64,000 bases of DNA from Halococcus sediminicola (GTDB lineage Archaea > Halobacteriota > Halobacteria > Halobacteriales > Halococcaceae), in contig NZ_BBMP01000022.1 of assembly GCF_000755245.1 (NCBI RefSeq), forward strand, positions 868,001-932,000, read 5' to 3'. Numbering within the stretch: the first letter of the stretch is position 1; each line of letters begins with the position of its first letter. Both the position numbers and the translations under genes were made by a program. A model generated the notes under the pieces. That model was not told the DNA's origin and did no database searches. It saw only the letters and a program-made list of their open reading frames with translations. Shown here in pieces: positions 9,774-64,000 of this stretch.

Positions 9774-12080
9774 ATGGAGTACGGTCTCGTCGCGCTGTGG
9801 TGGCTGGCGTTCGTCGGTCTCGCGCTGTTCGGCCTGCCGGTCGCCGCGCGGCTGTTCGCCTCGCTGCCGGGTCGCGGTGCGGGCTTTTCGTTCGCCCTTT
9901 CGTTGGCGGTCGTGACGCTCGTCGCCTTCTGGGTCGGCTTCCTCGCGCTCGGCTGGGTCGCCCTCTTCGCCGGGCTGGCGGCGCTCGCGATCTGTGCGGT
10001 GCTCGCGGTCCGCTCGGGCGTCGCCATCGACCGCCGGGCGGCCGTCGAGGCCACGGTAGTGTTCACGTTCGTTTATTTGTTCGTGGTCGCGCTGCGCGCG
10101 GTCGAACCGGGCATCACGCCGGGCGGCGAGAAATTCCTCGATTTCGGGCTGGTGGCGTCGCTGTACCGGGCGGGGAGCCTCCCGCCGGAGGACTTCTGGT
10201 TCGCTGGCGAATCGATCATCTACTACTATGGAGGACACCTCACGGTCGCGCTGCTGGCACGTCTCACCGACACCGTGCCGTGGACGGCGTTCAACCTCGG
10301 GATGGCCGGTCTCTACGGCACGCTCGCCGCCGGCGCGTACGAACTCGCTGGCGCGGTCGCGGTCGGCCGACGGAAACTCCGCGCGACCCACGAGGGCCAC
10401 ACGCGAACGCTCGCGGGCGCGACGGCGGTCTTTTTCACTATGTTTGCGAGCAACCCCTCGACGGCGATTCGACTGCTCGTCAGACGCCTCCCGACAGTGG
10501 TGCGCGACGAGGCCGCCGATGCGTTCGCGGCCTCACACTCCCAGTTACCCGACTATCAGGTGCTCAGGCCGATTCCCGAGGGCTATCAGTACAAGGTCGC
10601 CGGCCGCATCATCCCGAAGACCTACGACCCGTTCCCCCTGTTCGGGGCCATCAGGGGGGACATCCGGCCGTATTTTCTGAGTACGCCCTTCCTGCTCTGT
10701 GCGGTCGGGCTGTGCTACGCCTACTACCGCACACCCGCCGAATCGATCCGTCGCCGCCGTGCGCTCGTCTTCGGTGCCGTTCCAGTCGTCGGCGGGTTCA
10801 TGGCGCTGGTCAACACGTGGAGCCTGGCCATCGTCCTCGGGGTGGCGTGGCTCACGCTGACGTTCGCTCCCACCAGTCTGCGATCGCTCGTTCCCGCTCG
10901 GCTCGCCACCCCCATCGAGAACGCGGTGGGCCGCCCCGCGACCGACACGCCGCGAGGGGCACTCGCCCGCGTGGCCGGTGCGGCCGGTCTCGCCGGCGTC
11001 GTTGGCGTGCTCGCGGCGCTCGTCGCGCTGCCGTTCGTTCTCGGGCCGGTGCGTGCAGGGCCGAGCACACCGTTGATCGTCCTCGACGCCGCCGCGCGCA
11101 GTTCGGTCGGCTCGCTGCTACTGATTCACGGGGCCTTTCTCGCCGTCTTCGTCGCCCTCCTCCTCGGCCGTGTTCGCCGCCGCTGGTCGGCGGCCGTCGC
11201 CGTCGCCGGCGCGCTCTGGTTCGTCGCGGTCGTCGCGTTCACCCCCGCTGCGCTCGCGCCGCTCGCGCTGTTCGTGATCCCGCTCGCGCTCGGCTGGTAT
11301 CTCCTCGCTACCGACCGCGCGGGCTTCGGCACCCTCCTCGTCGTCGCGGGCTTCGGACTGCTGACGCTCGCCGAACTCGTCTATCTCGCCGAAGGTGGCG
11401 AGGGGCGGTTCAACACGGTGGTGAAGACCTACATGCCGACGTGGATCCTGTGGGCGAGCGCTGCGGGCGTGTTCCTCCCGGCGCTCGTTCGCGGCCGGAG
11501 TCCGTGGACGTGGACGCGCCGCCAGCAGGTCGGGAGCGTGCTCGCCGCGCTCCTCGTGCTCTCGACGGCCGCCTTCGGCGGCGTCGCCGTCCAACGCCAC
11601 TTCGCCCACCCCGGCGTCGAGGAACCGACGCTTGATGGACTGGCAGCCGCCGAGGAGAACGTTCCGGGGCAGGTCGCGGGCATCCGCTGGCTCGACGCCC
11701 GTCCGGGCCGGCCGACCATCGTCTCCGCACCCGGTCGGTACGTCTATCGGTGGAGCGCGAGTCCGGCCGCCAGCCTCACCGGCGTTCCGACGGTGGCTGG
11801 CGTCTCCCACGAAGCGCAGTATCGCGGTCAGGGGACGTATCTCGACCGGGTGTACGCCGTGAACACCATCTATCTCGGCGGGGCCGAGCGCCGTGCCGCG
11901 CTGCTCGAAACGTACGGCGTCGAGTACGTCTACGTGGGACCGACCGAGCGCCTCCGGTACGGTGATTTCGCGCCGTTTTCCGAACTTCGAGGGGTACGGG
12001 TCGCGTTCCGGGAGGACAACGTGACGATATACGAAATCGACCGAGAACGATTGGGTGCCGTGGAAAACGAAACGGGATGA
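9774..12080 (+). CDS. DUF2298 / Chlor_Arch_YYY membrane protein
   Basis: 768 aa polytopic membrane protein with more than a dozen hydrophobic segments. The family signature ESIIYYYGGHLTVALLARL (146-164, Tyr150-152) supports the YYY-domain assignment, as do the preceding FLDFGLVASLYR segment and PRIIPKTYD-like loop near 285-295. The fold resembles GT-C glycosyltransferases, and a Dol-P-sugar-type transferase role is plausible but unproved. The C-terminal roughly 170 residues after the last TM are extracytoplasmic-like (ARPGRPTIVSAPGRYVYRW, VAGVSHEAQYRGQGTYLDR). ATG 9774 directly precedes TM1. Confidence 0.8.
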   Translation: MEYGLVALWWLAFVGLALFGLPVAARLFASLPGRGAGFSFALSLAVVTLVAFWVGFLALGWVALFAGLAALAICAVLAVRSGVAIDRRAAVEATVVFTFVYLFVVALRAVEPGITPGGEKFLDFGLVASLYRAGSLPPEDFWFAGESIIYYYGGHLTVALLARLTDTVPWTAFNLGMAGLYGTLAAGAYELAGAVAVGRRKLRATHEGHTRTLAGATAVFFTMFASNPSTAIRLLVRRLPTVVRDEAADAFAASHSQLPDYQVLRPIPEGYQYKVAGRIIPKTYDPFPLFGAIRGDIRPYFLSTPFLLCAVGLCYAYYRTPAESIRRRRALVFGAVPVVGGFMALVNTWSLAIVLGVAWLTLTFAPTSLRSLVPARLATPIENAVGRPATDTPRGALARVAGAAGLAGVVGVLAALVALPFVLGPVRAGPSTPLIVLDAAARSSVGSLLLIHGAFLAVFVALLLGRVRRRWSAAVAVAGALWFVAVVAFTPAALAPLALFVIPLALGWYLLATDRAGFGTLLVVAGFGLLTLAELVYLAEGGEGRFNTVVKTYMPTWILWASAAGVFLPALVRGRSPWTWTRRQQVGSVLAALLVLSTAAFGGVAVQRHFAHPGVEEPTLDGLAAAEENVPGQVAGIRWLDARPGRPTIVSAPGRYVYRWSASPAASLTGVPTVAGVSHEAQYRGQGTYLDRVYAVNTIYLGGAERRAALLETYGVEYVYVGPTERLRYGDFAPFSELRGVRVAFREDNVTIYEIDRERLGAVENETG

Positions 12081-12082
12081 CC

Positions 12083-12892
12083 TCAGATCGCGTCGGTCTG
12101 CGTCCACGGCAGCTGTCGCGCGCCGACCCAGCGGACCAGTAGCGACGAGAGGTATCCCAACAGTCCGATGGATATCATGCCGACGATGATGGTCGCGTAG
12201 TCGCCCGCGATGTACGACGACCACGTGAGATAGCCGAGTCCCGACCCGGCGATCATCTCCGCGGCGACGAGGTTGACCCACGCCAGTCCCATCCCGTTGA
12301 TCATCCCCGCGTGAATCGACGGGAGCGCACCCGGATAGACGACGTGTCGAAACGTCTGGAGCCGGGAGGTCCCGAGGCTCTCGGCCGCCCGCGGGTACTC
12401 CTCGTCGATGTCTCGAACGCCCTGGACTGCGTTGAGCAGGATGGGGAAGAAGGCCCCGAGGAAGGTGATGAAGAGGATGCCCGTATCGACCGGATAGTCG
12501 ACGAGACCGACCGAGAGGATCGGGAAGACGAGCGCGACGACCGGGATCCACGCGACCGGCGGAACAGGTCTGAGGGTTTCGAGTGCCGGGAACGTGAAGT
12601 CAGCGAACACGCGATTCGAGCCGATGAGCAGCCCCACCGGAACGGCGAGCACGGCCGCGACGGCGAACGAGACGTAGATGCGGGCGGTGCTCACGAGCGC
12701 CGCCGTCCAAAAGGAGGACTCCGCGAGCGCCTCGGCGAACGTCGCGCCGACGTCGAGCGGCGACGGCAGGTTCGGGATCAACCCGAGGACCGTCGTCGCG
12801 AGCGCCCAGAGCAAGAAGACGACCACGACCGAGACGAATCGTCGTCCCCACTGGGCCGGGTCGAACCCCGAGACGCGCTCTGCGACCGCCAT
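12083..12892 (-). CDS. ABC transporter permease 2 (nitrate/sulfonate type)
   Basis: 269 aa BPD_transp_1 permease with about six TM segments. The ATPase-contacting loop is EYPRAAESLGTSRLQTFRHVVYPGALPSI (EAA-like loop, about 165-193). Close in type to SsuC/TauC/NrtB. It is the last gene of the PBP-permease-ATPase-permease operon; ATG 12892 overlaps the ATPase stop by 1 bp. It differs clearly from the other permease (13793-14644), so the transporter may use a heterodimeric membrane part. Only 2 bp separate it from the convergent YYY-domain gene. Confidence 0.87.
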   Translation of the reverse strand: MAVAERVSGFDPAQWGRRFVSVVVVFLLWALATTVLGLIPNLPSPLDVGATFAEALAESSFWTAALVSTARIYVSFAVAAVLAVPVGLLIGSNRVFADFTFPALETLRPVPPVAWIPVVALVFPILSVGLVDYPVDTGILFITFLGAFFPILLNAVQGVRDIDEEYPRAAESLGTSRLQTFRHVVYPGALPSIHAGMINGMGLAWVNLVAAEMIAGSGLGYLTWSSYIAGDYATIIVGMISIGLLGYLSSLLVRWVGARQLPWTQTDAI

Positions 12893-13782
12893 CACTGGGC
12901 CTCTGCCTGTTCGAGCGCGCGCTCGGCCTCGGCGTGGATGAGGTCGAGCGCACGACGTTTCACGCGCGTGAACTCGTCGGTGGTGACCATGTCGAGCGTG
13001 CGCGGGCGCTCCAGATCGACGTCGAGCACTTCCTTGACCTGGCCGGGGCGAGCGCTCATCACGACGACCCTGTCGGCGAGGAAGATGGCCTCCTCGACGT
13101 CGTGGGTGATGAAGAGGACTGTTCTGTCCTCGTCGCCCCAGACGTCGAGCAGGTTCTCCTGCATCAACTCCTTGGTCATCGCGTCCAGCCCACTGAACGG
13201 CTCGTCCATCAGCATGATGTCCGGGTCGTTCGCCAGTAGGCGGGCGAGTTCGGCGCGCTGTTGCATCCCGCCGGATAGCTCGTGGGGATAGGAGTTTTCG
13301 AACCCGTCGAGTCCCATCTCGTCGATGAGCGACGCCACGCGCTCGTCGTCGACGGCGTTTCGCATCTCGGGACCGAAGCGGACGTTCTCGGCGATGGTCT
13401 TCCACGGAAAGAGTCGATTCGACTGGAAGACCACTCCCCGCGAGGGGTCCGGCTCTGTGACGCGCTCGCCGTCGACACGGACCTCACCTTCGGTCGGCTG
13501 GAGATAGCCCGCCACACACTCCATGACGGTGCTCTTCCCACAGCCCGATGGCCCGAGCACGGTGACGAACTCGCCGGCCCCGATGTCGAGGCTCATCTCC
13601 TCGACGGCGACGACGCTGTCGCCGTCCGGGTCGTAGATCTTGGTCAGGTCGTCGATGTCGACCGCGCCGGTGGCCGACCCCGTGCCGGTCGTCGGCTGCT
13701 GGACGTCGGCCGCGCTCCGTTGGGTGGTTTCTGTGCGCTGTGCGCCGCCGTCGGCTTCGATGTCGTCGTTGCTGTCGTTCAT
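12892..13782 (-). CDS. ABC transporter ATP-binding protein (nitrate/sulfonate type)
   Basis: 296 aa. Walker A GPSGCGKST (77-85), Q-loop near VVFQSNRLFPW (117-127), signature LSGGMQQRAELARLL (169-183), Walker B IMLMDEP (189-195), switch His in FITHDVEEAIFLADR. It matches SsuB/TauB/NrtD ATPases that energise oxyanion or sulfonate uptake. The first 40 residues are an extra polar Thr/Gln-rich leader. It lies 10 bp after one permease and overlaps the next. Confidence 0.9.
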   Translation of the reverse strand: MNDSNDDIEADGGAQRTETTQRSAADVQQPTTGTGSATGAVDIDDLTKIYDPDGDSVVAVEEMSLDIGAGEFVTVLGPSGCGKSTVMECVAGYLQPTEGEVRVDGERVTEPDPSRGVVFQSNRLFPWKTIAENVRFGPEMRNAVDDERVASLIDEMGLDGFENSYPHELSGGMQQRAELARLLANDPDIMLMDEPFSGLDAMTKELMQENLLDVWGDEDRTVLFITHDVEEAIFLADRVVVMSARPGQVKEVLDVDLERPRTLDMVTTDEFTRVKRRALDLIHAEAERALEQAEAQ

Positions 13783-13792
13783 GGGTATCTGG

Positions 13793-14644
13793 TCAGTTGG
13801 TTTCGCGTCGGTTCCACGCCGTTGCCCGGTTGCCGAGTCGCGTGACGAGCGCCGAGGAGGCGTACCCCAGAATGCCGATGGCGATCATCCCGACGAGCAC
13901 GTCGTCGGTCGCGAGCAGTCGGTAGGCCTGATAGATGGAGTAGCCAAGCCCGAAGTTGCCGGCGATGATCTCGGCGGCGACGACCGTGATCCAGCCCAGC
14001 CCGATGCCGAGCGAGACGCCGGTGAGGATCGACGGTAGCGTCGCCGGGAAGATGACCTCGCGGAACACCTGCCTGCCTTCGGCACCGAGACTTTTCGCCG
14101 CGCGGACGTACTCGGTCTCGACGGTGTTGACGCCCTCGATGGTGTTGACGAGGATCGGGAAGAACGCGCCGATGAACACGACGAACACCACGGCGAAGCT
14201 GAGCTGGATGCTCAGAATCGTCACCGAGGGCAACAGCAGGATGCTGATGGGCACCCACGCGACCGGCGGAATCGGACGAAAGAGTTCGAGCGCCGGGAAG
14301 GTGAACTCCCTGAACCGCTGGCTCGTCCCGATGGCGAGGCCGAGCGGGATGGCGAGTGCGGTCGCCACGCCGACGCCGACGGCCACCCGGAAGGTGGAGT
14401 AGGCGGCGTGGAGGTAGATGGTGCCGCCGCTGGCGATCGGCTCGCCGGCGAGATACGTGGCGAACAGCGCCAGCGTCTCGACCGGTCCCGAGAGGAACTC
14501 GAAGCCGAGCACGCCGAAATTGACGAGCGCCCACCACACCAGCAGAAAGCCCACCATCGAGGCGGCCTGTCGCACCCGCCGGGGAATCCGGTCGAGACCG
14601 ACGAGTCCGTCCTCGAAGCGCTCGGCGACCGTTCGCGTGCTCAT
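13793..14644 (-). CDS. ABC transporter permease 1 (nitrate/sulfonate type)
   Basis: 283 aa, six-TM BPD_transp_1 permease. The cytoplasmic coupling loop is EYVRAAKSLGAEGRQVFREVIFPATLPSI (about 179-207), and the C-terminal TM segment is VGMIAIGILGYASSALV. ATG 14644 overlaps the stop of the binding-protein gene by 4 bp (ATGA). Sequence and length differ from permease 2, although both keep the REFTFPALE / ADFTFPALE-type loop and the PVAWxP motif, showing descent from a common ancestor. Confidence 0.88.
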   Translation of the reverse strand: MSTRTVAERFEDGLVGLDRIPRRVRQAASMVGFLLVWWALVNFGVLGFEFLSGPVETLALFATYLAGEPIASGGTIYLHAAYSTFRVAVGVGVATALAIPLGLAIGTSQRFREFTFPALELFRPIPPVAWVPISILLLPSVTILSIQLSFAVVFVVFIGAFFPILVNTIEGVNTVETEYVRAAKSLGAEGRQVFREVIFPATLPSILTGVSLGIGLGWITVVAAEIIAGNFGLGYSIYQAYRLLATDDVLVGMIAIGILGYASSALVTRLGNRATAWNRRETN

Positions 14645-15792
14645 CCCCAGCCTCCCACGCGGGCGCTCGCGTTGCTGGCGTTCCCGCCGCCGAAGCGCTT
14701 GGGACCGGTTTCGACACCGAGTTCATCGGCGGCCTGTTTCGTGAGGGCGGCCTTGTATCGGTCCTTGGACGGAATCGCGCCGATCGCGCCCTGCTCTTTG
14801 AGGAACTGCGGGCCGGTTCGTTTCAGCAGCTGATTGGCCTGCTTCACCGTCGTGAAGTCGGTGACCAGTTCGAGCCGGTTCACGCCGTTGCCGAGCTTGA
14901 GGGTGCGATAGAGCGAGGCTCTGAGCGTCGCACGGTCGTACGTGCTCAGGTCGCCCTCTTGGGCCACGAGGTCGAGCGTTCGCTCGGGCTGGGTGGCCAT
15001 GATGCGTTTGGCTTCGAGTTCGGCCTTCAGCCAGCCGACGGCGGCCGCGCGGTCGTTTTCGATGAGCGAGTCGGGCATGATGATGCCAGCCGCATCCACC
15101 GTATCGAACTCCGCACCGGTGACGAGATAGCGCGCCTCGTCCTCCTGGAAGACCGCGCGCGCCATGTTCGGTTCCCAGCCGAAGCCGACCGGAAGGGAGC
15201 CCTGCCGGATCTCGGCGAGGATGTTCCCGATACCGTTGTCGACCAGTCGCGGGCTGACGCCCGTCTGTTCGACGACGTTCAAGTAGAAGCGATGGGTGCA
15301 ACTACCCGTCGTGACCGCGACGTCCTTGCCGCCCATCCCTGCCGCTTTCGTGATGGGCGAGTTCTTCGGGACGACGGCGAGGTTACACTGCTGGCCCTCC
15401 GAGAAGCCGGCCGTGGCGACCGCACTCACTGGCGTCTTGTCGTTCGCTATCGCGGTGATCGTCGGCATGTCGCCGGTGTAGCCCACCTGATTCTTGCCGG
15501 CGATGAGCCGCGTTCCCACGATGGAACCCTGTAGCGCCGAATCCCACTGCTTGACCGAGTAGCCTTTCGGGAGATGCTTCTCGGCCAATCCGCCGTTCTT
15601 GATGACCAGCGCCGACCACGCCTCCGCGTAGTAGGGCTGGTAGCCGATGGTCAGTTCGCGGCCCGCGGAAGCTGCACTGCCGAGACAGCCCGCAAGTAGC
15701 CCCGTCGTCCCGATGGCCGCTCCCTGAAGGAACCGCCGACGAGAACTGGCCGTCGATGCCTCTGCCGGTCGTCGATAGTGTTGTTCGTTCAT
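14641..15792 (-). CDS. Tat lipoprotein substrate-binding protein, nitrate/sulfonate type
   Basis: 383 aa. A twin-arginine motif SRRRFLQG (17-24) and lipobox LLAGC (32-36) mark it as a Tat-exported lipoprotein anchored at Cys36. The mature part is an NMT1/SsuA-like periplasmic-binding fold: LTIGYQPYYAEAWSALVIKN, SIVGTRLIAGKNQVGYTGD, DVAVTTGSCTHRFYLNVVEQ. The ligand may be an alkanesulfonate, taurine, nitrate or a pyrimidine precursor; sequence alone does not decide. ATG 15792 is preferred; in-frame GTG 15867 and ATG 15825 would lengthen the n-region. First gene of the operon. Confidence 0.87.
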   Translation of the reverse strand: MNEQHYRRPAEASTASSRRRFLQGAAIGTTGLLAGCLGSAASAGRELTIGYQPYYAEAWSALVIKNGGLAEKHLPKGYSVKQWDSALQGSIVGTRLIAGKNQVGYTGDMPTITAIANDKTPVSAVATAGFSEGQQCNLAVVPKNSPITKAAGMGGKDVAVTTGSCTHRFYLNVVEQTGVSPRLVDNGIGNILAEIRQGSLPVGFGWEPNMARAVFQEDEARYLVTGAEFDTVDAAGIIMPDSLIENDRAAAVGWLKAELEAKRIMATQPERTLDLVAQEGDLSTYDRATLRASLYRTLKLGNGVNRLELVTDFTTVKQANQLLKRTGPQFLKEQGAIGAIPSKDRYKAALTKQAADELGVETGPKRFGGGNASNASARVGGWG

Positions 15793-15856
15793 GTGTTGAT
15801 CGGTGCCGTTCACGCCCCAATACATCGCCAACGGTATGCTGGCTCGCTTTTGACCG

Positions 15857-15877
15857 GGAACCGCCACATCCGGTTTC
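15857..15877. repeat. Imperfect inverted repeat upstream of the ABC importer operon
   Basis: GGAACCG-N7-CGGTTTC, six of seven arm positions pair. It lies 65 bp before the binding-protein ATG and next to TATA-like A/T tracts at 15894-15899 and 15909-15917 (read on the minus strand). It could be an operator or lie within a 5' leader. Confidence 0.35.
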
Positions 15878-15964
15878 TAAGTTACCTGTGAGATATTATT
15901 GGGATGGGTTTAAATAACATTGTTGCTTTCGTCCGCAAGCGACAACAGCCGCGACGGCCGCGAT

Positions 15965-16711
15965 TCAGTCCAGCTCGCCCGTCCGAATCGTCTGTTCCGC
16001 CGCTTCGAGCGCTTCCTCACGGTCGAACTCGTCGATGGCTCGCTCGCGGTCGGCGGCCGAACGGTCGGCCAACGCGCGGGCGTGGGCGGCGATGTTCGGG
16101 ATCGCACGGACGAGGTTGTCGACGACGGGCACGGCGGCGACCTGCGGCGAGCGCGAGAGCGGGTTGAGGTCGACGACCACTTCCACTTTCCCCATCTCGT
16201 CGAGCGCTTCGGCACGGTCGCCGTCCTCCAGGGGGACGAGCACGACGTCGGCGGCATGAATACCGTCGGCAGCGACTTTCGCGCGCTCGCTTGCGAGACC
16301 GGGAATCCGTGCGTCCGCATGCTCTCCTTCGACCTCCGTAGCCCCGTGTGCGCGGAGGTGGTCGGCGATGGCGGCGACGCGCTCGTCGGTGCGATTGAAG
16401 AGGTTCACCTCGATGGTCGCCCCCGTCGCGTCGGCGAGGGCGACGATCCCGTCGGGCACCAGCGCCGCGGCGTTGCCGTTGACCGAGATGACGGGTTGTT
16501 CCGCACGAAGGAGATGGGCGGCGGCGGCGCGCTCGGCGCGCTCGGCGCTCGGGATGGTTCGCTCGCCGAGCAGGTAGTCGAAGGCCTCGCCGCGCCCCTC
16601 GGCGATGAGTCCCTGCTTGTGAGTGAGGCCGGCATCGACACCGGCTTCGATGCGATGGCGGGTGCGGAGCGAGTCGCTGCGGGGATGCTCGTCGGGCACC
16701 TCGGTCGTCAT
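15965..16711 (-). CDS. 4-phosphopantoate--beta-alanine ligase (archaeal phosphopantothenate synthetase)
   Basis: 248 aa. Joins 4-phosphopantoate and beta-alanine with ATP in the archaeal CoA route that replaces PanC/CoaA. Family features: EVPDEHPRSDSLRTRHRIE start, THKQGLIAEGRGEAFDYLLG (30-49), ISVNGNAAALVPD (75-87), LFNRTDERV, and the C-terminal LNPLSRSPQVAAVPVVDNLVRA. It lies 31 bp after the pantoate kinase gene, its partner enzyme. ATG 16711 gives the conserved N-terminus. Confidence 0.9.
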   Translation of the reverse strand: MTTEVPDEHPRSDSLRTRHRIEAGVDAGLTHKQGLIAEGRGEAFDYLLGERTIPSAERAERAAAAHLLRAEQPVISVNGNAAALVPDGIVALADATGATIEVNLFNRTDERVAAIADHLRAHGATEVEGEHADARIPGLASERAKVAADGIHAADVVLVPLEDGDRAEALDEMGKVEVVVDLNPLSRSPQVAAVPVVDNLVRAIPNIAAHARALADRSAADRERAIDEFDREEALEAAEQTIRTGELD

Positions 16712-16742
16712 GGCCACACTGCGCGGCCGCTCGGCAAAAGCC

Positions 16743-17600
16743 TTACACCAGTCGTGCGCCCGCACGATCGATGTCGCAGACCGCCGGGTCGTAGCCCGCG
16801 TCGGTCAATCCGTCGCCGAGGGCGACCACCGTCTCGCCGAGCATCGCCATCGCCGCCTCGCCATCGACGTCGAGAACCGCGTCGATGGCGCGCTCCACCG
16901 GCGGGGTGAGCAGATCCGCTCCCTCGGCGAACGCCCGCGAACACGCGAACAGTCGAGGAAGGGTCGGCTCGTCGAGCAGATCCGTGAGCGCCCGCTCGCC
17001 GGCCCGTGTGAGTTCGTCGACGTCGCCGCCGATGATCTCGCCCGTCGAGCGCCCGCCGAAGGAGACGTACTCGATTCGTGTGGGTGGGGCGGTAATCCCG
17101 TCGAGGGTACCGTGTCCGGATGCGCCCGGTTCGCGCCTGAGGGGGACCCCGCCGCGGGCCTGTGCGACCACGTCCCCGAGACCGGTGCCCGCTGCGACCT
17201 CCGCCGCGTGGGCAGTCGTGACGAGTTCGTTTTCCGTCCGGCCGAGGCCGAACGCCTGATTCGCGGCGAGCGCCGCGCCGAGCGCCGCCCCGCCCGAGAC
17301 GCCGAAGCCGGCGCTCACCGGCAGTTCGGACTCGATTTCGACCGCCGCGTGCACGCCGAGTTCGTCGAGTGTGCGCGCCACCGCGTCCATCGCGACCGTC
17401 TCGCCGTCGAGGACGACCGTCGTCTCGGGGGCAGCCGCGAGGTCGACGGTCACACCATCCGAGAGCGCGATACCCGCACCCCGTGATCCAGCCTTTCGAG
17501 GGTTTTCGGCCGGATGGACGCTGAACAGCCCCGTGACGTGACCGGGAACGAACGCCCGTGGCTGGGTGTCCCCGCTCCGTCGGTGTGTTGGGGCCGCCAT
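16743..17600 (-). CDS. Pantoate kinase (GHMP family)
   Basis: 285 aa. Phosphorylates pantoate to 4-phosphopantoate, the first step of the archaeal-specific CoA branch. GHMP features: AFVPGHVTGLFSVHPAENP (16-34), GSRGAGIAL, the ATP loop PVSAGFGVSGGAALGAALA (94-112), and AGTGLGDVVAQARGGVPLR. ATG 17600 places the conserved FVPGHVTGLF near residue 17, as usual. The gene directly precedes phosphopantothenate synthetase and is divergent from the FNT gene. Confidence 0.9.
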   Translation of the reverse strand: MAAPTHRRSGDTQPRAFVPGHVTGLFSVHPAENPRKAGSRGAGIALSDGVTVDLAAAPETTVVLDGETVAMDAVARTLDELGVHAAVEIESELPVSAGFGVSGGAALGAALAANQAFGLGRTENELVTTAHAAEVAAGTGLGDVVAQARGGVPLRREPGASGHGTLDGITAPPTRIEYVSFGGRSTGEIIGGDVDELTRAGERALTDLLDEPTLPRLFACSRAFAEGADLLTPPVERAIDAVLDVDGEAAMAMLGETVVALGDGLTDAGYDPAVCDIDRAGARLV

Positions 17601-55227: not shown

Positions 55228-55997
55228 TGGCCCGATGGGCGGTCTTCGCGGGGTTGACCGCCCTCGTGCTCACACTCTTGCTCGCGCTCGCGCGCCTCTC
55301 ACAATCGACCGTGAGCGACGGTGCGGTCCCGGGGGACGACACCCGAAGCGAAGCGCCCACCGCCGACCCACCACGCCCGGACCGCACCGCGACCGAACCG
55401 TCGGACTCGGCGTCGCTTTCCACGGGGCTATTGCTCGCAAACGTCGCGCTCTCACAGGGGCTGTTCTTACTGATTCTTCTCGGCGGCGCGTGGTACGCTC
55501 GGGTCCCGCTCGCGGCGCTCGGCGCGCCGCCGGCGACCAATCGAATAGAGGAACTCGCAATCGGCGTCGCGCTCGGCACCGGCCTGTATCTCGTCAACGA
55601 GTTCGGCTCGCGTGCCGTCGAGGCGGTCGGCATCGAGACGCCCACCGCGCTGCGCGAATCGCTCGCGCCCGACTCGACGGCGGGCTGGGTGGTGCTGTTG
55701 GCGCTGGTGCTCCCGATCATCGCCGTCTTCGAGGAGTTCCTCTTCCGGGCGGCGCTCGTGGGCGCGTTCTCGGCGGGGTTTTCGTTCTCGCCGTGGCTGC
55801 TCGCAGTTCTCTCCTCGATAGCCTTCGCGCTCGGGCACGGTGCGCAGGGTGCGCTCGGCATGGTCGTTACTGGCGGTTTGGGCTTCGTGCTCGCGGGCGC
55901 GTTCGTCGTGACGGGGAGCCTGCTCGTCGTGGTGGTCGCCCACTACCTCGTCAACGCGCTCGAATTCGCCGTCAACGAAGGTTCGATGGCCGATTAG
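55227..55997 (+). CDS. CPBP family intramembrane metalloprotease
   Basis: 256 aa. About seven TM segments; CPBP motifs EEFLFRAAL (169-177), FALGHGAQG (about 206-214) and HYLVNALEF. The family includes Rce1-like prenyl-protein proteases. The GTG start (55227) overlaps the last base of the lonB stop, so the two are co-transcribed; the stop overlaps that of the convergent CoA-transferase gene by 4 bp. Confidence 0.85.
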   Translation: MARWAVFAGLTALVLTLLLALARLSQSTVSDGAVPGDDTRSEAPTADPPRPDRTATEPSDSASLSTGLLLANVALSQGLFLLILLGGAWYARVPLAALGAPPATNRIEELAIGVALGTGLYLVNEFGSRAVEAVGIETPTALRESLAPDSTAGWVVLLALVLPIIAVFEEFLFRAALVGAFSAGFSFSPWLLAVLSSIAFALGHGAQGALGMVVTGGLGFVLAGAFVVTGSLLVVVVAHYLVNALEFAVNEGSMAD

Positions 55998-57235
55998 CCC
56001 TCGAACGGCGCGACGACATCGGCGTCGATCAACTCACGAATCGCGTCCTCGTCGTAGCCCGCCTCGCGGAGTAGGTCGCGGGTGTGTTCGCCAAGGCGGG
56101 GCGGATGCTGGCGGATCGTCGTCGGCGTGTTCGAGAAATGCATCGGACTGCCGGGCATCGAGACGGTGCCGGCGGTCGGGTGGTCGATTTCGCGACGCAT
56201 TCCGCGCGCCGCGACCTGCTCGTCGGCGAAGACGTCGGCCATGTTGTGGACGTCGCTCGCGGGTACGTCGTGCTCGTCGAAGAGGGCGAGCAACTCGTCG
56301 GTTCCGTATTCCGCGAGTTCGTCGGCCAGTAACGTGTCGAGCGCCTCGCGGTTGGCCACTCGATCTTCGTTGGTCGCGAAGCGCGCGTCGTCGGTGAGGT
56401 CCTCGCGGTCGAGCGCCGTACAGAAGTTCGGCCAGAGGTTCTCGGAGGCGACTGCGATCACGATATATCCGTCGCGCGTCTCGAAGGCCTGATACGGCGC
56501 TATCGTCGGGTGTTTGCTGCCCATTCGCGTGGGCGGGTCGCCGGTGGCGAAGTAGTTCGAGGCCATGTACGTCATCCAGGCCACCTGCCCGTCGAACAGG
56601 CTAATGTCGATTTTTTGTCCATTCGTCCCACTCAGTTCGCGTTCGAGCAGCGCCGCCAGAATTCCCTGTGTGGCGTACATCCCCGCACCGATGTCGGCGA
56701 TGGCGACGCCGACCCGAACGGGGGTTCTTCCTTCCTCGCCAGTGATGCTCATCAACCCGCCCTCGGCCTGCATGATGATGTCGTAGGCCGGGCGATGGCT
56801 GTCGGGCCCCCACTCGCCGTAGCCCGAGATCGAACAGTAGACCAGTTCCGGGTTCTCTTCGCGGAGGTCGTCGTAGCCGAGGTTCCACTCTTCCATCTTC
56901 CCGACCCGAAAGTTCTCGACGAGCACGTCGGCCTCGCGGGCGAGTTCGCGGAACACCTCGCGGCCTTCCTCCGAGGCGAGGTTCAGCGCGATCGAGCGCT
57001 TGTTCCGGTTGATGCTCATGTAGTAGGCGCTTTCCTCGGAATCGCCGTAGCTCGGGGGTTTCCAGCCACGGGTCTGATCGCCGGTGCTGGGGCGCTCGAT
57101 TTTGATGATCTCCGCGCCGAGGTCGCCCAACTGCATCGTACAGAACGGACCGGCGAGCACGCGCGAGGCGTCCAAAACTGTGAGACCGTCGAGCGGCCCG
57201 CGCTCACCGTCGGCCGTGCGCGCTTCGCCGGTCAT
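55994..57235 (-). CDS. CaiB/BaiF (family III) CoA-transferase
   Basis: 413 aa. GLTVLDASRVLAGPFCTMQL (17-36), AEIIKIERPSTGDQTRGWKP (41-60), SINRNKRSIALNL (74-86) and catalytic Asp152 in RPAYDIIMQAEGGLMSITGE. C-terminal small domain FDEHDVPASDVHNMADVFAD. It moves CoA between carboxylates. Its start overlaps the ThDP enzyme stop by 4 bp, so the two act in one pathway; oxalate, 2-hydroxyacyl or other dicarboxylate substrates are possible. Confidence 0.9.
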   Translation of the reverse strand: MTGEARTADGERGPLDGLTVLDASRVLAGPFCTMQLGDLGAEIIKIERPSTGDQTRGWKPPSYGDSEESAYYMSINRNKRSIALNLASEEGREVFRELAREADVLVENFRVGKMEEWNLGYDDLREENPELVYCSISGYGEWGPDSHRPAYDIIMQAEGGLMSITGEEGRTPVRVGVAIADIGAGMYATQGILAALLERELSGTNGQKIDISLFDGQVAWMTYMASNYFATGDPPTRMGSKHPTIAPYQAFETRDGYIVIAVASENLWPNFCTALDREDLTDDARFATNEDRVANREALDTLLADELAEYGTDELLALFDEHDVPASDVHNMADVFADEQVAARGMRREIDHPTAGTVSMPGSPMHFSNTPTTIRQHPPRLGEHTRDLLREAGYDEDAIRELIDADVVAPFEG

Positions 57236-58872
57236 CGGCCCTCCATGAACGCGCTCGCCTGTGGCTCGTCGGGGTCGGTGCGCACCTCGACCAACACCGG
57301 TTCGTCGCGCTTGACGGCCTCGGCCACACGCTCTTCGAGCTCCACGACGCCGTCGGCTCGGAGCGCGGTCATGCCCATCCCCTCGGCGATCGTCAGGAAG
57401 TCGAGCGCAGCCGACGGCCAGCCGTAGGCCCCTGATTCGAGCCCGTAGCTGCGCTCGGCCTCCTCGCTGATGATGGCGTAGTCGTCGTTGTTGAACACGA
57501 CCGTCGTGACGGGGAGATCGTCGGCGACGGCGGTGTGGAGTTCGTGAACCGCCATCATCAGGCCGCCATCACCGCAGAGCGCCAGCACCGGTTTCTCGGG
57601 ATTGGCCAACTGCGCGCCGATGGCGGCGGGCAATCCGGTTCCCATCGTCGCCCACGAGCCCGGATTCACGTATCGGCGCGGGCCGTAGGCGTCGAAGACG
57701 TTGAGCGCCCACACCCGGAAGCCGCCCGCGTCGGCGCTCACGACCGTCTCGTCGGGAATCGCGCGGCGAACCGCCCGGAGACAGGCCACGGAGGTCGGCG
57801 GCTCGCGCTCGGCATCGAGCAGGCCGGCGATGCGCTCGTCGTAGGCGTCCCTGACCGCCGCGACTTCCGCAGCGCCGTCCCAGCCATCGCCCGCGGCGTC
57901 GCCGAGCCGCCCCTCCAACTCGTCGAGCGTCGCGCGCGCGTCGGCGACGATGCCCACGGTGGGCGTGTAGCCGGTGCCGATGTCGTTCGCGTCGAGCGTG
58001 ACGTGGACGAGTTCGTCGGGCAGCGGTGCCGAGAAGTGGCTCGTGGCGACCGCGTCGAGGTCCGAGCCGACGACGAGCGCGGCGTCCGCAGCAGCTAGCG
58101 TGTCTTCGAGTTCCGGACTGGCGCTTCCCGAGAGCGTCCCGAGCCAGAGCGGGTGCTCACCGCCGATGACGCCCTTTCCCTTGTAGGTCGTCACGACCGG
58201 CGCGCGCAGGCGCTCGGCGATCGATTCGAGCTCCGCGGCGGCTCCCGAGGCCCTGACGCCGCCGCCGGCGACGATGACCGGTTTGCTCGCCCCGTCGAGC
58301 ACGTCCGCTGCGCCGGCGACGCCGTCGGGCCGTTCGGTCGAGGGTGTTTCGACGTTGGCCGGCGACGCGACCGCTACGTCCTGTGCGAGGAAATTTTTGG
58401 GGATGCCGATTCGCACCGGCCCTTTCGGCGGGGTCGTGGCGATCGTGAGCGCGCGGTCGAGTTCGGCGGCGGTCGCCTCGGGCGTCTCGACCAGGATGTT
58501 CTCCTTGACGACGGTGTCGTAGGTATCGGGCGGCGTCTCGTGGATGGCGTCGCCGCCGCGGAGGTCGGGTTCGGTCTCGATGGCGATGTGCAGGAGGGGC
58601 GTGCAGTCGTTTTTCGCGTTCTTCAGCCCGTTCATCGCGTTCATGTCGCCCGGACCGGGAACGACGATGGTCGCCGCTGGCCGGCCGCTCGTCTCGGCGT
58701 AGCCCCACGCCTCCTGACTGACGGCGGTCTCGTGGCGCGCGACGACGTAGCGGACGTCCTCGGCGCGGTCGATGCCGTCGTTCAGCGGGAGCGACTGCTT
58801 GCCGGGGATGCCGAAGACGGTGTCGATACCGTGCTCGCGCAGGCGCTCGACGACGGCGGTGCTGACGTGCAT
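57232..58872 (-). CDS. Thiamine-diphosphate-dependent enzyme (acetolactate synthase-like)
   Basis: 546 aa. Three-domain ThDP enzyme: PYR domain with catalytic Glu48 in VVARHETAVSQEAWGYAETS; central domain (about 185-320); PP domain with GDGGLMMAVHELHTAVADDL then NNDDYAII (about 432-470) binding Mg-ThDP. No FAD-binding signature of true acetolactate synthases is clear. Placement with a family III CoA-transferase suggests an acyl-CoA lyase or decarboxylase (oxalyl-CoA- or 2-hydroxyacyl-CoA-lyase-like). ATG 58872 lies about 25 bp after a TATA-like element. Confidence 0.85.
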   Translation of the reverse strand: MHVSTAVVERLREHGIDTVFGIPGKQSLPLNDGIDRAEDVRYVVARHETAVSQEAWGYAETSGRPAATIVVPGPGDMNAMNGLKNAKNDCTPLLHIAIETEPDLRGGDAIHETPPDTYDTVVKENILVETPEATAAELDRALTIATTPPKGPVRIGIPKNFLAQDVAVASPANVETPSTERPDGVAGAADVLDGASKPVIVAGGGVRASGAAAELESIAERLRAPVVTTYKGKGVIGGEHPLWLGTLSGSASPELEDTLAAADAALVVGSDLDAVATSHFSAPLPDELVHVTLDANDIGTGYTPTVGIVADARATLDELEGRLGDAAGDGWDGAAEVAAVRDAYDERIAGLLDAEREPPTSVACLRAVRRAIPDETVVSADAGGFRVWALNVFDAYGPRRYVNPGSWATMGTGLPAAIGAQLANPEKPVLALCGDGGLMMAVHELHTAVADDLPVTTVVFNNDDYAIISEEAERSYGLESGAYGWPSAALDFLTIAEGMGMTALRADGVVELEERVAEAVKRDEPVLVEVRTDPDEPQASAFMEGR

Positions 58873-58908: not shown

Positions 58909-59808
58909 TTAGCGAACCGAATCGGATCGATCGCCGTGCACCGCGCGATGAGGCGTAACGTGCGGGCCGTGCTCGCCCGGTTCGACGGTCGCCGCGACGC
59001 CGAAGACGTCCCGGAGAAGTCCTTCGGAGACGACTTTCGACGGTGGTCCGCGGGCGTAGATTTCGCCGTCGTCGAGCGCGAGCATGTGTTCTGCGTGCCG
59101 GGCGGCCTGGTCGATGTCGTGGAGGACGAGCACGACCGTGACCTCATTCTCGACGTTCAGCGTCTCGACGATCTCCATCACTTCGAGTTGGTGGTGGAGA
59201 TCGAGGAAGGTCGTGGGTTCGTCGAGCAGCAGTACCTCCGTGTCCTGGGCGAGCGCCATCGCGATCCACGCGAGCTGTTTCTGACCGCCGCTGAGGCTGC
59301 CGAGGTCGCGGTCGCGGAGGTGGTCGACGCCGGCCAGCGAGAGCGCGCGCTCGACGGCCGCCTCGTCGGCGTCGGTCGGCGATTCGAACGCGCCCCGGTG
59401 GGGATAGCGACCGTGCATAGCGAGGCTTTCGACGGTGAGGCTCGCCGGGAGGTCGCTCTCTTGGGCGAGCAAGCCGAGTTTGCGGGCGAGCTCCTTCGTC
59501 CCGAGCGACTGTATCTCCCGCCCGTCGAGTCTGACGACGCCGGATTCGGGAGCGAGCTGGTTGGCGAGGCCCTGGAGCAGCGTGCTCTTTCCCGACCCGT
59601 TCGGCCCGACGAGCGCCGTCACGCGGTTTTCGGGGATCGACACCGACTCGCCGTCGATTACCGGTCGATCCTCGGAGTAGCCGAGCACGAGTTCTTCGGC
59701 GACGAGAGCACTTGGAGAGTCGTCCCGAACGCCGCCGGGTGGCTCCAACACCGACTCGCTCGTGACGACCGCTCCGCCGTCGGGCGCGACGTCGTCGGTG
59801 TCGACCAT
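58909..59808 (-). CDS. Iron/siderophore-type ABC transporter ATP-binding protein
   Basis: 299 aa FecE/FepC-like ATPase. Walker A GPNGSGKS (68-75), Q-loop LGLLAQESDLPASLTVESLA, MHGRYPHRGAF, signature LSGGQKQ (172-178), Walker B VLLLDEPTTFLDL, switch VLHDIDQAARHA. The first 35 residues are a polar leader. ATG 59808 is preferred over TTG at 59811. It is separated from the permease gene by a 130-bp promoter region with a DtxR-like palindrome. Confidence 0.9.
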   Translation of the reverse strand: MVDTDDVAPDGGAVVTSESVLEPPGGVRDDSPSALVAEELVLGYSEDRPVIDGESVSIPENRVTALVGPNGSGKSTLLQGLANQLAPESGVVRLDGREIQSLGTKELARKLGLLAQESDLPASLTVESLAMHGRYPHRGAFESPTDADEAAVERALSLAGVDHLRDRDLGSLSGGQKQLAWIAMALAQDTEVLLLDEPTTFLDLHHQLEVMEIVETLNVENEVTVVLVLHDIDQAARHAEHMLALDDGEIYARGPPSKVVSEGLLRDVFGVAATVEPGEHGPHVTPHRAVHGDRSDSVR

Positions 59809-59896: not shown

Positions 59897-59912
59897 TTTA
59901 GGTGGGCCTAAA
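59897..59912. promoter_or_regulatory. DtxR-type inverted repeat (candidate iron operator)
   Basis: TTTAGG-TGGG-CCTAAA, perfect 6-bp arms with TTAGG half-sites as in DtxR/IdeR/Idr operators. It lies about 10 bp past a minus-strand TATA-like CGTTTATG (about 59917-59924), the position where a repressor would block transcription of the ABC ATPase gene. Confidence 0.6.
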
Positions 59913-59940: not shown

Positions 59941-61053
59941 TTAGAGTTCGCCGATGGAGCCTCGCTTGCGCATGAGGTAGAGGAAGTAGGGACCGCCGAC
60001 GAGACCGGTGACGATGCCGACCGGTACCTGGACGGGGCTGAGCGCGAGGCGCGCGCCGACGTCGGCGGCGACGACCAGCGCCGGACCGGCGAACACACAG
60101 CCGACGACGAGTCGTCTGTAGTCACTGCCGACGATGGTGCGGACGATGTGGGGGACGATGAGTCCGACGAAGCCGACGATGCCCGCGACGGCGACGCTCG
60201 CGGCCGCCGCGAGGATGCCGACGCCGGCCAGTGCGAACCGAACCCGCTCGACGCTCATCCCGAGCGCCTTGGCCGTCTGCTCGCCGAGCAACAACACGTT
60301 GAGCTGACGGGCGGCGGCCAGCGCCAGCCCGACCGCAATCACCGTCCACGGGAGGATCACCCTGACCTGTGCCCAGTCGGTACCGGTGAGTGAGCCGGTC
60401 GTCCACGCCAGCGCCTCCTGGACGACGCCGAGGTCGTCGGCGAAGAGGAACAGTCCCTGCTGGAGCGAGCGAAACACCATGTCGACGATGACGCCGGCGA
60501 GCACCAGCCGTACGGGCGAGGTTCCACCCTGCCACGCGATGAGGTAGACGACGAGGAACGCGACCGCACCGCCGACGGCGGCCAGCAGCGGGACGAACGC
60601 GCTGAGTTCCGAGAAGACGACGAGCGTGAGCAGGATGGCGAGACCAGCGCCGGAACTCACGCCCAGAATGAAGGGGCTCGCGAGTTCGTTTCTGGTGATG
60701 GCCTGAAAGATGGCCCCCGAGACCGCGAGGTTCATGCCGACGAACGCGCCGACTAGCACCCGCGGCAGGCGAATGTTCCAGACGACGAGGCTTTTCCTCC
60801 CCATCTCGGGCACCTCGCCGCCGAGCAGGAACGCCGACAGCGCGTTCGGGTCGAAGATCACCGCGGGGTCGAAGACGGCGGCCCACGCCTGCCCGATGGT
60901 CATCGAGTACGACCCGAAGCTCACCTGTACGAGACCGGCGACGACGACGATGGCGACGCTGCCGAGACAGAGCGCGACCAGCGGACCGTCGACCCAGTCG
61001 AGCAGCCGCTCCCGGCGGGATGCGGGAGCGGCGGTCGATGCGTCGTCCGCCAT
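59941..61053 (-). CDS. Iron/siderophore-type ABC transporter permease (FecCD)
   Basis: 370 aa with about nine to ten TM segments. FecCD motifs: RLPRVLVGAFVGMNLAVSGA (about 94-113), FQAITRNELASPFILGVSSG, GEQTAKALGMSVERVRF (coupling loop), and FVGLIVPHIVRTIVGSDYRR. Imports Fe(III)-chelates, haem or corrinoids; the adjacent iron box favours iron. It starts 2 bp after the flavoprotein gene. No second permease is present, so it likely forms a homodimer. Confidence 0.9.
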   Translation of the reverse strand: MADDASTAAPASRRERLLDWVDGPLVALCLGSVAIVVVAGLVQVSFGSYSMTIGQAWAAVFDPAVIFDPNALSAFLLGGEVPEMGRKSLVVWNIRLPRVLVGAFVGMNLAVSGAIFQAITRNELASPFILGVSSGAGLAILLTLVVFSELSAFVPLLAAVGGAVAFLVVYLIAWQGGTSPVRLVLAGVIVDMVFRSLQQGLFLFADDLGVVQEALAWTTGSLTGTDWAQVRVILPWTVIAVGLALAAARQLNVLLLGEQTAKALGMSVERVRFALAGVGILAAAASVAVAGIVGFVGLIVPHIVRTIVGSDYRRLVVGCVFAGPALVVAADVGARLALSPVQVPVGIVTGLVGGPYFLYLMRKRGSIGEL

Positions 61054-61055
61054 CG

Positions 61056-61922
61056 CTACGTCCCCACCCCTGACGACTTCCGCTCGATCTCGCGGGCGCG
61101 TGCGAGGATCCGCTCGTCGTCGATGTGGTCGAGCAGCCGGTCGTGGCCGTCCACGGCGCGCCGCTCGCGCTCGGCCGCCGGGAGGAACTCCGCGAGCCGA
61201 CGGTCGATCGCCGCCTCGCGGCGGGCCGCTCGCCGCTCGCCGCTCCAGTCGTCGGGAGCGTGTTCGTCGAACCACTCGCGCCACCGCTCGCGCTCGCGCC
61301 ACTCGCCGGTGAGTTCGCCCTCCCGGCGCAGCCAGTCGTACTGCTCAGCGAGCGCGTCGGGGTAGTCGCGTTCGCGCCGTGCGTCGGCGATGAGGGCGTG
61401 CGCAGTGCGAGCGCCGCGGCCGGCCGCGATGATGGCCTGTCTGTCCGACGCCACCGACGGCGAGGCGACGTAGAGACCGTTTATGGAGGTTCTGCCGTCC
61501 TCGGTGGCGGACGACCGGTCGAACCGCTCGTTCCCGTCGTCTTCGAACATCGCGTCGTCGAGGGGTGAGAGATACTCGCCACCGTAGCGCGTGGCCGCGA
61601 CGACCCGCTCGGCCGTGACTCGGCGACCGTCCTGCGTTTCGAGCACGAATCCACCGTCCCCGCGTTCGACCGCTTCGACGAGGGTGGGGACGATCCCGCA
61701 ACCGGCACGCGCTGCGTGGTCGTGCAGCAGTTCGTAGAACGTCTCGACGTCGATCCCGGCGGGGAATCCGGGGTAGTTTTCGAGGTGGGCACACCGCCGG
61801 AGCGAGGAGCGCCCGCGGTCGAAGATCACCGTCTCGAAACCGTATCGCGCGGTGAACACGCCGGCCGAACAGCCGGCCGGCCCGCCACCGACGATGGCCA
61901 CGTCGACGTCGGTGCCGGTCAT
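61056..61922 (-). CDS. Truncated thioredoxin-reductase-like flavoprotein
   Basis: 288 aa. Residues 7-120 hold the FAD part of the TrxR fold: IVGGGPAGCSAGVFTARYG (10-28), FDRG (34-37), ENYPGFPAGI (48-57), VVAATRY (107-113). About 35 residues later GLYVASPSVASDRQAIIAAG (149-168) supplies the second FAD segment. The whole NADPH domain and the redox CxxC are absent; only Cys18, Cys44 and Cys75 occur. Residues about 180-288 are a charged, Arg/Glu/Trp-rich helical tail. It overlaps the binding-protein gene by 4 bp and precedes the permease by 2 bp, so it is part of the uptake operon. Confidence 0.82.
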   Translation of the reverse strand: MTGTDVDVAIVGGGPAGCSAGVFTARYGFETVIFDRGRSSLRRCAHLENYPGFPAGIDVETFYELLHDHAARAGCGIVPTLVEAVERGDGGFVLETQDGRRVTAERVVAATRYGGEYLSPLDDAMFEDDGNERFDRSSATEDGRTSINGLYVASPSVASDRQAIIAAGRGARTAHALIADARRERDYPDALAEQYDWLRREGELTGEWRERERWREWFDEHAPDDWSGERRAARREAAIDRRLAEFLPAAERERRAVDGHDRLLDHIDDERILARAREIERKSSGVGT

Positions 61923-63166
61923 CGCCGGAACGACCCGTTGACGACGTCGGCGACGCGCTCCCGGTCGAACAGTTGCTCGTCGGCCGGGAGTTCGGGGTAC
62001 GGTCCCTTCGTGTACCGCGGCCACTCGCCGAACTGGTCGGGATAGAGCTGTTTCGCGGTCATCTCCAACTGGAAGAGGTTCAGTATCGGTCCCTGATAGC
62101 GCGCCCCCTGAGCGTACACGCGGTCGTTCTCGACGGCCGAGAGCCGCTTTCCGACCGGGTCCTCCCGCAACCGCCGGCGAACCCTCCGCATATCGGTTTC
62201 CGGATGCATGCCGCCGAGTCCGAAGAGGACGTCCGGGTCGGCCTCCAGCAGCCCCTCGACGTCGACCGTATCCCCCGACGCGACGTCGCCGCCGAACGCC
62301 TCTGCCGGGCCGAGCGGTCGGGTGTGCGCCGTCAGGAAACCCGGTGTGGTCACCTTGTAGACGTATATCTCGTCGAGGTCGCGCGGCAGCGCCATCGTCG
62401 CCGTCGGTCGTCGGCCGGACGGCGGCAGGCCGTCGGCGATCGTCTCGCGTAGCCGGGTGTGGACGGACGCGAGCGCCTCGTAACGTGCGTTCTCGCCGAA
62501 CACCTGTGCGACCTTCTCGAACATCTCCCACAGCCCGTAGTACCGGTACTCGTCGGCCCACTCGTCGGGCGGCGTCGCGTGTCTGTCGCTGTAGTAGTTC
62601 CCGAACCACGGACCGACGTTCGTCCGGATCTCGTCGAGGTCGTCGGTCGTCCAGCCGTGGAGCGAGGCGACGCCCGCCGGGTCGGCGAGATGCACGTCGT
62701 TGTCGAGTTCGTAGAGCTGTTCCTTGCTCGGGTTCCACGAGGAGTAGAGACCGCTCCAGTCGACCGAGACGCCGTCGAGGCGGGGCGTGAACTGGTTCCA
62801 CAGCGCGTCGTAGTACTCCGGCGAGTGCATCGCCGTCACGTCGGTACCCCGCCCGAGCGCGAACGCCATGCCGGCCAGATGCGTCAGGCGCGTGAAGATG
62901 CGCTTCGGGACGCCATCGAACGTGACCTCGCCCATCGGAGCCATCGACACGCTGTACGAACCACCGGCACCACCGGGTGTCGTGCTGTCGGTCGCCGAAT
63001 CTGTGGCTCGGGTGCCGGAGTCGGTCGAACCGTTCGTCCCGTTCGCGCTCCTGTCGGATCGGCCGGTACAGCCGGCGAGCAACCCACCGAGTACGAGCGC
63101 ACCACCGGCTCCGAGCGACGCCCTGCGCGAAAGCGACAGTCCCTTCGCCTCCGGTCCCTCGGTCAT
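61919..63166 (-). CDS. Tat lipoprotein substrate-binding protein, iron/siderophore type
   Basis: 415 aa. Tat motif SRRASLG (13-19) and lipobox LLAGC (29-33), then a Ser/Thr/Gly linker. The mature part is a two-lobe FecB/TroA-like fold: MGEVTFDGVPKRIFTRLTHL, ALGRGTDVTAMHSPEYYDAL, VSVDWSGLYSSWNPSKEQLY, VEGLLEADPDVLFGLGGMHP, SAVENDRVYAQGARYQGPI. It is clearly related to the next gene upstream in the operon. Stop overlaps the flavoprotein start; start overlaps the stop of that upstream gene by 4 bp. Confidence 0.88.
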   Translation of the reverse strand: MTEGPEAKGLSLSRRASLGAGGALVLGGLLAGCTGRSDRSANGTNGSTDSGTRATDSATDSTTPGGAGGSYSVSMAPMGEVTFDGVPKRIFTRLTHLAGMAFALGRGTDVTAMHSPEYYDALWNQFTPRLDGVSVDWSGLYSSWNPSKEQLYELDNDVHLADPAGVASLHGWTTDDLDEIRTNVGPWFGNYYSDRHATPPDEWADEYRYYGLWEMFEKVAQVFGENARYEALASVHTRLRETIADGLPPSGRRPTATMALPRDLDEIYVYKVTTPGFLTAHTRPLGPAEAFGGDVASGDTVDVEGLLEADPDVLFGLGGMHPETDMRRVRRRLREDPVGKRLSAVENDRVYAQGARYQGPILNLFQLEMTAKQLYPDQFGEWPRYTKGPYPELPADEQLFDRERVADVVNGSFRR

Positions 63167-64000
63167 CGCTGGACCCTCCCGGCGACGACGTCCGCCACTC
63201 GCTGGCGGTCGAACAGTTCCCGCGAAACGCCGTAGAGCTGCTTCGCCGCACGTTCGGCGAGCACGAGGTTCGTGATCGGGCCCTGATACAGCGGGCCGCC
63301 ACGGTAGACGTCGTCGTTCTCGACGGCCGTGAGGCTGCCTGCGACGTCGTGCTCTCTCAGAAATCGAACCACTGTGTTCTGGAACTCTTCTGCGGTCTGG
63401 TCCTCGTGGCCGCGCAGGAGCAACACTTCGGGATCGATTTCGAGCAGCGTCTCGTAATCGAGGTGCGCTCTGGAGCCGTGGAAATCCTCGACGTCGGTTT
63501 CGGCGAGCGCATCTCGGACACCGAGGTCGCGCCACTGCTTGAAGCTGGTTCCCTCGTCGATGAGATACGGACTGAACTGCTCGGGTTGGTTACCTTCGGC
63601 CCAGAGGATGGCGGCCGCCGGACGCTCGCCCTTCGGTGGGGCGACCTCGGAGAGCCGCGACTGGAACCCGTCGTGAAGTTTCGAGAACGCTTCGTAGCGC
63701 TGCTCGCGTTCGAACACTTCCGCGAGTTTTCCGAACGCCTCGTACAGCGAGTAGTACCGATAGTCCTCGTGCCACGCGTAGCCCCGCGAAAAGCCGGTGT
63801 TACCGAGAAACGGCGCGACGTTTTCGGCGATTTCGTCGATATCCGCCCGTTTCCAGCCTTTGGCCCGGTTGAGCAGGAAGTTCGGGTCCTGGATGTGGAC
63901 ATCGCCGTCGAGTTGGTAATACGTCTCCTTGCTCACGCCGCCACCGTCGCCGAACAGGCGAGTCATCCCCGAGGTATCCACCGAGACGCCGGGGATTCCG
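63163..64000 (-). CDS. Second substrate-binding protein, 5' end beyond the window
   Basis: C-terminal about 278 residues; the reading frame continues past base 64000 without a stop, so the start and signal peptide are not visible. It aligns along its length with the neighbouring binding protein (GVSVDTSGM versus GVSVDWSGL; DYRYYSLYEAFGKLAEVFER versus EYRYYGLWEMFEKVAQVFGE; SLTAVENDDVYRGGPLYQGP versus RLSAVENDRVYAQGARYQGP; ELFDRQRVADVVAGRVQR at the end). Tandem duplication with different ligand-pocket sequences. Confidence 0.88.
   Translation of the reverse strand, partial: GIPGVSVDTSGMTRLFGDGGGVSKETYYQLDGDVHIQDPNFLLNRAKGWKRADIDEIAENVAPFLGNTGFSRGYAWHEDYRYYSLYEAFGKLAEVFEREQRYEAFSKLHDGFQSRLSEVAPPKGERPAAAILWAEGNQPEQFSPYLIDEGTSFKQWRDLGVRDALAETDVEDFHGSRAHLDYETLLEIDPEVLLLRGHEDQTAEEFQNTVVRFLREHDVAGSLTAVENDDVYRGGPLYQGPITNLVLAERAAKQLYGVSRELFDRQRVADVVAGRVQR

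Follow-up and report, generated by a model that had tools for sequence, protein, structure and literature searches.

The minus-strand gene at 61056..61922 encodes a thioredoxin reductase (TrxR)-like flavoprotein of 288 aa without NADPH domain, which is probably an iron-regulated cytoplasmic ferric-siderophore reductase served by an outside electron donor such as ferredoxin. It is located in the window, the 64,000-nucleotide stretch of Halococcus sediminicola DNA which was analysed. A role of the protein in iron uptake is well supported. The sequence-only reading knew of no described system with this build, and this holds in part. The core has been solved as PDB 2cvj and short relatives are common, while the C-terminal helical tail, a near-invariant Cys44 and the iron context are new.

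The flavoprotein was identified from its translation, family models, the match to PDB 2cvj, an AlphaFold model, Foldseek and a tree. The ORF starts with ATG, and all the segments described here are on the minus strand. The first FAD-binding segment (residues 5-112, 61587..61910) was delimited by families, PDB alignment, conservation and model. It possesses the GxGxxG FAD-binding domain of thioredoxin reductase and a GGGPAG motif in which G12, G14 and G17 are invariant, and HMMER assigned residues 7-111 to Pyr_redox_2. No NADPH-binding domain was found between the FAD segments; in place of its approximately 125 residues there is a segment of about 30 (113-142, 61497..61586), seen in the PDB alignment, model and Foldseek. 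The second FAD-binding segment (residues 143-185, 61368..61496; PDB alignment, conservation and model) contains the invariant Q162 and G170. It is followed by the C-terminal helical tail (residues 186-288, 61059..61367; model, alignment and conservation), whose 103 aa include 20 Arg, 16 Glu and 5 Trp. Three cysteines are present, at positions 18, 44 and 75, and the sequence has no CxxC. The thioredoxin reductase model TIGR01292 matched with 79 bits (E 3e-22) against a family cut-off of 343, and flavin monooxygenase models matched over the first Rossmann motif only. The top PDB sequence match was 2cvj (E 4e-18), which aligned from end to end with residues 7-187 and spanned both FAD halves, with nothing inserted between them. 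True TrxRs in PDB aligned over the first 110-130 residues only. The AlphaFold model (pLDDT 89, pTM 0.86, 48 aligned sequences) showed an FAD-domain core up to about residue 185 and then solely helices, from about 206 to 285. Foldseek also gave 2cvj as the top match of this model (E 2e-14, TM 0.83 target-normalised, 34% identity). HMMER, the 2cvj alignment and the model therefore bear out the earlier description of a protein which keeps both FAD segments, lacks the CxxC and has a short stretch instead of the NADPH domain; the Arg/Glu/Trp-rich helical tail of that description was likewise recovered. The invariant residues and the homology indicate that the protein probably binds FAD. With an FAD motif from residue 6 onwards and no signal peptide, the flavoprotein is taken to be cytoplasmic.

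The closest known structure belongs to TTHA0370 of Thermus thermophilus (PDB 2cvj and 2ywl; 180 aa), labelled 'thioredoxin reductase related protein'. Both proteins have a single-domain TrxR-like fold, and both are without NADPH domain and CxxC. The 2cvj structure was solved in 2005, hence the NADPH-less core is not a new fold. TTHA0370 lacks the helical tail of about 100 residues and Cys44; proteins of its type have a length of about 180-200 aa with no extension, and the short haloarchaeal relatives are separated from the iron clade in the tree. In the literature searched, the function of TTHA0370 is unreported and the protein received one passing mention. To our knowledge, it has no iron context. 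TrxB (TIGR01292) is homologous in its FAD-binding halves, but its NADPH domain and CxxC are missing in the flavoprotein.

Some flavoprotein relative was found in 357 of 391 haloarchaeal genomes at E 1e-20. Of 116 haloarchaeal genomes, 66 or more had a close homolog at 1e-45; for the window's clade this is a minimum, since with a single query some members score weaker. The clade is thus present in only somewhat over half of haloarchaeal genomes. Three unmixed groups were distinguished in a tree built from 48 proteins. Members of the window's clade have the tail and a length of about 290-330 aa, those of its sister clade have about 250 aa, and the third group is short, at about 190 aa. The short single-domain relatives are common in haloarchaea. 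The same build was observed in 33 loci forming one clade, so neither chance nor a local deletion in one strain accounts for it. No examined locus contained a homolog whose NADPH domain is complete, the outcome which the sequence-only reading had named as the sign of such a deletion. Among the best matches listed from other classes of the phylum, similarity was confined to the N-terminal TrxR part. In phage records, TrxR-like matches were distant and partial only.

Residue conservation distinguished the window's clade from its sister. Residue 44 (codon at 61791..61793), identified by conservation, is Cys in 32 of the 33 members and Asn in all 11 of the sister clade. Tyr113 is present in 33/33 and in none of the sister clade. 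The alignment with TrxR predicts that Cys44 is near the flavin. In the tail, W197, W208, E216, E236, R255 and D268 are conserved in the window's clade, and W208, E216 and E236 are specific to it. The flavin-site residues are invariant across all 48 sequences. Members of the sister clade are mostly located in non-iron, housekeeping neighbourhoods, and the iron context therefore should not be assumed for the entire family. Some genomes do have a sister-clade member within the iron cluster itself, where it follows a second binding protein that has a paired iron box of its own.

The minus-strand gene order around the flavoprotein is three binding lipoproteins, flavoprotein, FecCD permease and ATPase, which together contain all the parts of a FecCD-type siderophore importer (binding lipoprotein, permease and ATPase). 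The adjoining substrate-binding lipoprotein (Peripla_BP_2, 61919..63166) was identified by families and fold. Families identified the second Peripla_BP_2 lipoprotein (63163..64000, extending past the window to 64320), the third binding lipoprotein beyond the window (64387-65559), the FecCD-type permease (59941..61053) and the ABC ATPase of the importer (58909..59808). A Dps/ferritin-like gene (65812-66369) lies to the right of the window, divergent to the operon. Overlapping starts and stops had been proposed to tie the flavoprotein to both a binding protein and a permease. A 4-base ATGA overlap does join its gene with the adjoining binding-protein gene, and another ATGA overlap joins this gene with the second binding-protein gene; the permease starts 2 bases past the flavoprotein stop and has no overlap. 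The adjoining binding protein matched FeuA, IsdE, HtsA, YclQ and FatB in sequence profiles, and CeuE, HtsA, FeuA, FepB and PiaA among PDB folds. It thus resembles a siderophore-type fold. The importer is followed on its strand by CoA-transferase-like and thiamine-diphosphate-enzyme-like genes (55994-58872), as read from the sequence, with no sign of membership in the iron system.

The association with siderophore-type binding proteins was found to be general. Context loci were picked by flavoprotein similarity irrespective of their context, and 48 of 53 haloarchaeal clade members had a binding-protein gene within 3 genes. The first set showed such a gene in 31/33 (immediately upstream in 23/33) and a permease within the same distance in only 13/33; the second, lower-scoring set showed 17/20 and 10/20, respectively. 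The window's genome has 7 Peripla_BP_2 genes in 3.76 Mb, from which we estimate a probability near 1% that one falls by chance within about 3 kb to the left or right. From these counts, the flavoprotein accompanies the binding protein, in many cases with no transporter core nearby. This is the pattern expected if a few permeases serve many binding proteins; H. volcanii has 11 fhuD paralogs and two permeases (PMC11349517). Distances in the flavoprotein tree and in the tree of adjoining binding proteins were compared by a Mantel correlation (r = 0.13, p = 0.10), which gives no support to a chelate-specific pairing of the two.

These neighbourhoods bear on the view that the flavoprotein is a degenerate, non-catalytic flavin binder, acting as a sensor of redox or iron state for the importer or as an assembly factor, with the tail docking on the ATPase or permease. 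The absence of both the NADPH domain and CxxC, the long charged tail and the ATGA coupling to transporter genes would all suit such a protein. It is however rather unlikely, since so many loci have the binding-protein gene without permease or ATPase, the flavin site is invariant in the 48 sequences, and the clade retains both Cys44 and Tyr113. A reductase is preferred over it.

The regulation of the reductase candidate was approached through a palindrome, TTTAGGCnnGCCTAAA, which precedes flavoprotein/importer loci. Among inverted repeats upstream of the operons, TTTAGGC(2)GCCTAAA was the sole outlier. Counted with up to 2 mismatches, the palindrome preceded 18 of 43 operon starts, where shuffles gave 0.02, and occurred at 18 of 20 additional loci, for which 0.1 was expected. 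In the window, one copy, TTTAGGTGGGCCTAAA, with 1 mismatch to TTTAGGCNNGCCTAAA, is located upstream of the ATPase gene (59897..59912); three further copies follow shortly beyond the window's end, at 64325, 64360 and 65603. One palindrome lies between the Dps/ferritin-like gene and the siderophore operon. The window's genome has 11 sites (control 6), including four in the siderophore operon, three at a cluster for an Fbp-like ABC importer and one by a ZIP transporter. Contig C26 of this genome (245000-262000) showed four sites and no flavoprotein; three of these sites flank genes of an Fbp-like ABC importer, a cupredoxin lipoprotein and an RGP-type protein. The sites are often paired, 34-36 bases apart, which suggests a double operator.

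The Haloferax larsenii plasmid pHl5678-2 contains 13 palindrome sites (control 0). One pair is directly upstream of an IucA/IucC siderophore operon, and another is upstream of a hypothetical gene preceding a gene for a metal-dependent (DtxR-type) regulator. Further palindromes are upstream of two siderophore-type binding-protein genes and on both sides of the flavoprotein gene, including upstream of it. The genes which it precedes (the IucA/IucC operon, binding proteins and regulator) mark the palindrome as a putative iron box. The ferR signal carried by the fhu genes of H. volcanii (PMC11349517) fits this assignment. On the same plasmid, at 11500-17100 of the segment, a flavoprotein and binding-protein pair was observed directly upstream of a cupredoxin and nosZ cluster; this adjacency of nosZ (nitrous-oxide reductase) ties iron uptake to denitrification genes.

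Published expression data are available for H. mediterranei. The NAD(P)/FAD-dependent oxidoreductase E6P09_02485 is down under denitrifying conditions (log2 -4.06), and iron permease, ATPase and siderophore genes fall together with it (PMC11218638). Its locus tag is consecutive with those of a FecCD permease and an ATPase (PMC11218638). By annotation and gene order only, it is the probable ortholog of the flavoprotein. From the shared operator and the co-repression of this probable ortholog, the gene in the window is predicted to be iron-repressed together with siderophore genes.

The same genomic and regulatory evidence would also serve an iron-regulated flavin protein of siderophore uptake which alters the ligand chemically, through flavin-dependent oxidation or cleavage of the chelator ring. 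One FAD domain plus a tail would be compatible with an oxidase or with a monooxygenase component. Against this stand the TrxR-like core, with TTHA0370 as best match and flavin monooxygenases restricted to the first Rossmann motif, and the clade loci, where no reductase partner gene recurs beside the flavoprotein. Alteration of the ligand is accordingly quite unlikely, and reduction of the ferric siderophore is favoured.

Haloarchaea make and use siderophores. In H. volcanii, Fe3+ must be reduced to leave the siderophore, and the genes for this step are stated to be unknown (PMC7407949). Two cytoplasmic ferric-siderophore reductase families are described, SIP and FSR/FhuF (PMC11965169). Matches to the SIP family and to FhuF_C were found in 0 of 116 haloarchaeal genomes each; both searches were positive in the control genomes, E. 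coli and C. glutamicum. The family scan of the flavoprotein itself gave no match to SIP (PF08021; FAD_binding_9 and SIP domains) or to FhuF (PF11575, C-terminal 2Fe-2S cysteine motif). The absence of SIP and FhuF from the 116 genomes makes an iron-regulated reductase the best explanation of the flavoprotein. Being made alongside siderophore importers under the same iron-responsive signal, it is a good candidate for reducing the imported iron.

Likeness to the known reductases is in the task rather than in the whole build. SIP proteins (ViuB/YqjH type) have the cytoplasmic, flavin-dependent ferric-siderophore reductase role (PMC11965169) which is proposed for the flavoprotein, but belong to another family (PF08021). 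FhuF-type proteins (FSR), with which the flavoprotein is proposed to share its cellular task, form a 2Fe-2S protein family. IruO of Staphylococcus aureus is a TrxR-like flavoprotein without CxxC which reduces hydroxamate siderophores (PMC10294844). Together with Bacillus FNR1, a TrxR-like FNR, it resembles the flavoprotein in being an iron-regulated TrxR-like FAD protein without CxxC, with a Fur box in the IruO class (PMC10294844). The difference lies in the NAD(P)H domain, which is complete in IruO, whose reductant is NADPH, and absent from the haloarchaeal flavoprotein. Co-regulation with the importer, the gap left by SIP and FhuF, and the precedent of IruO make it the most economical reading that the clade fills this gap. 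More tentatively, and at slightly less than an even chance, the clade may represent a third family of cytoplasmic ferric-siderophore reductases beside SIP and FhuF, and with it the missing reductase of haloarchaeal siderophore uptake. Its members would be one-domain TrxR-like flavoproteins that have a helical tail and obtain electrons from ferredoxin or a different protein donor rather than from NAD(P)H.

In the proposed mechanism, lipoprotein binding proteins would capture the iron chelate extracellularly for import by the FecCD permease and its ATPase. The flavoprotein would most likely hand electrons via FAD to the ferric chelate, by which Fe(II) would be released. Without an NAD(P)H domain, the flavin needs an outside electron donor, most plausibly reduced ferredoxin. 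The helical tail and Cys44 may shape the flavin site or a docking site. The sequence-only reading had made the protein part of an iron-chelate importer which may reduce or release the iron. This reading is supported by the binding-protein neighbours, the iron box shared with the siderophore operon, the fold of the partner, the co-expression of the probable ortholog and the lack of SIP and FhuF in the genomes searched; the reduction itself we infer.

Some observations count against the reductase reading. These are the Mantel result, the presence of the clade in just over half of the genomes, and an importer lacking both flavoprotein and iron box, located on contig C27 in the window's genome. 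The latter served as negative control, and shows that the flavoprotein is dispensable for some importers. Many other Pyr_redox proteins are present in the window's genome, any of which could reduce iron. A function in another thiol or ferredoxin pathway, such as protection against iron-driven oxidative stress, with mere co-regulation by iron, would agree with the TrxR ancestry, the divergent Dps/ferritin-like gene and the mostly non-iron sister clade, but is quite unlikely in view of the missing CxxC and the linkage to importer binding proteins rather than to peroxidases or thioredoxins.

The clade of the proposed reductase is widespread and iron-boxed, and its members are at present annotated generically as FAD protein. 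It offers one concrete gene and one protein for study in the genetically tractable Haloferax. With a reductase function, one branch of the single-domain TrxR-like proteins, uncharacterised so far, would gain its first role.

Apart from the importer genes, a few other families adjoin the flavoprotein in the 33 loci. DUF7552 proteins, whose longer forms are joined to DUF7551, were observed in 9, HEAT-repeat proteins with a C-terminal CxxC-CxxC ribbon in 7, and DUF7260 proteins in 3. They are probably unrecognised members of the iron regulon.
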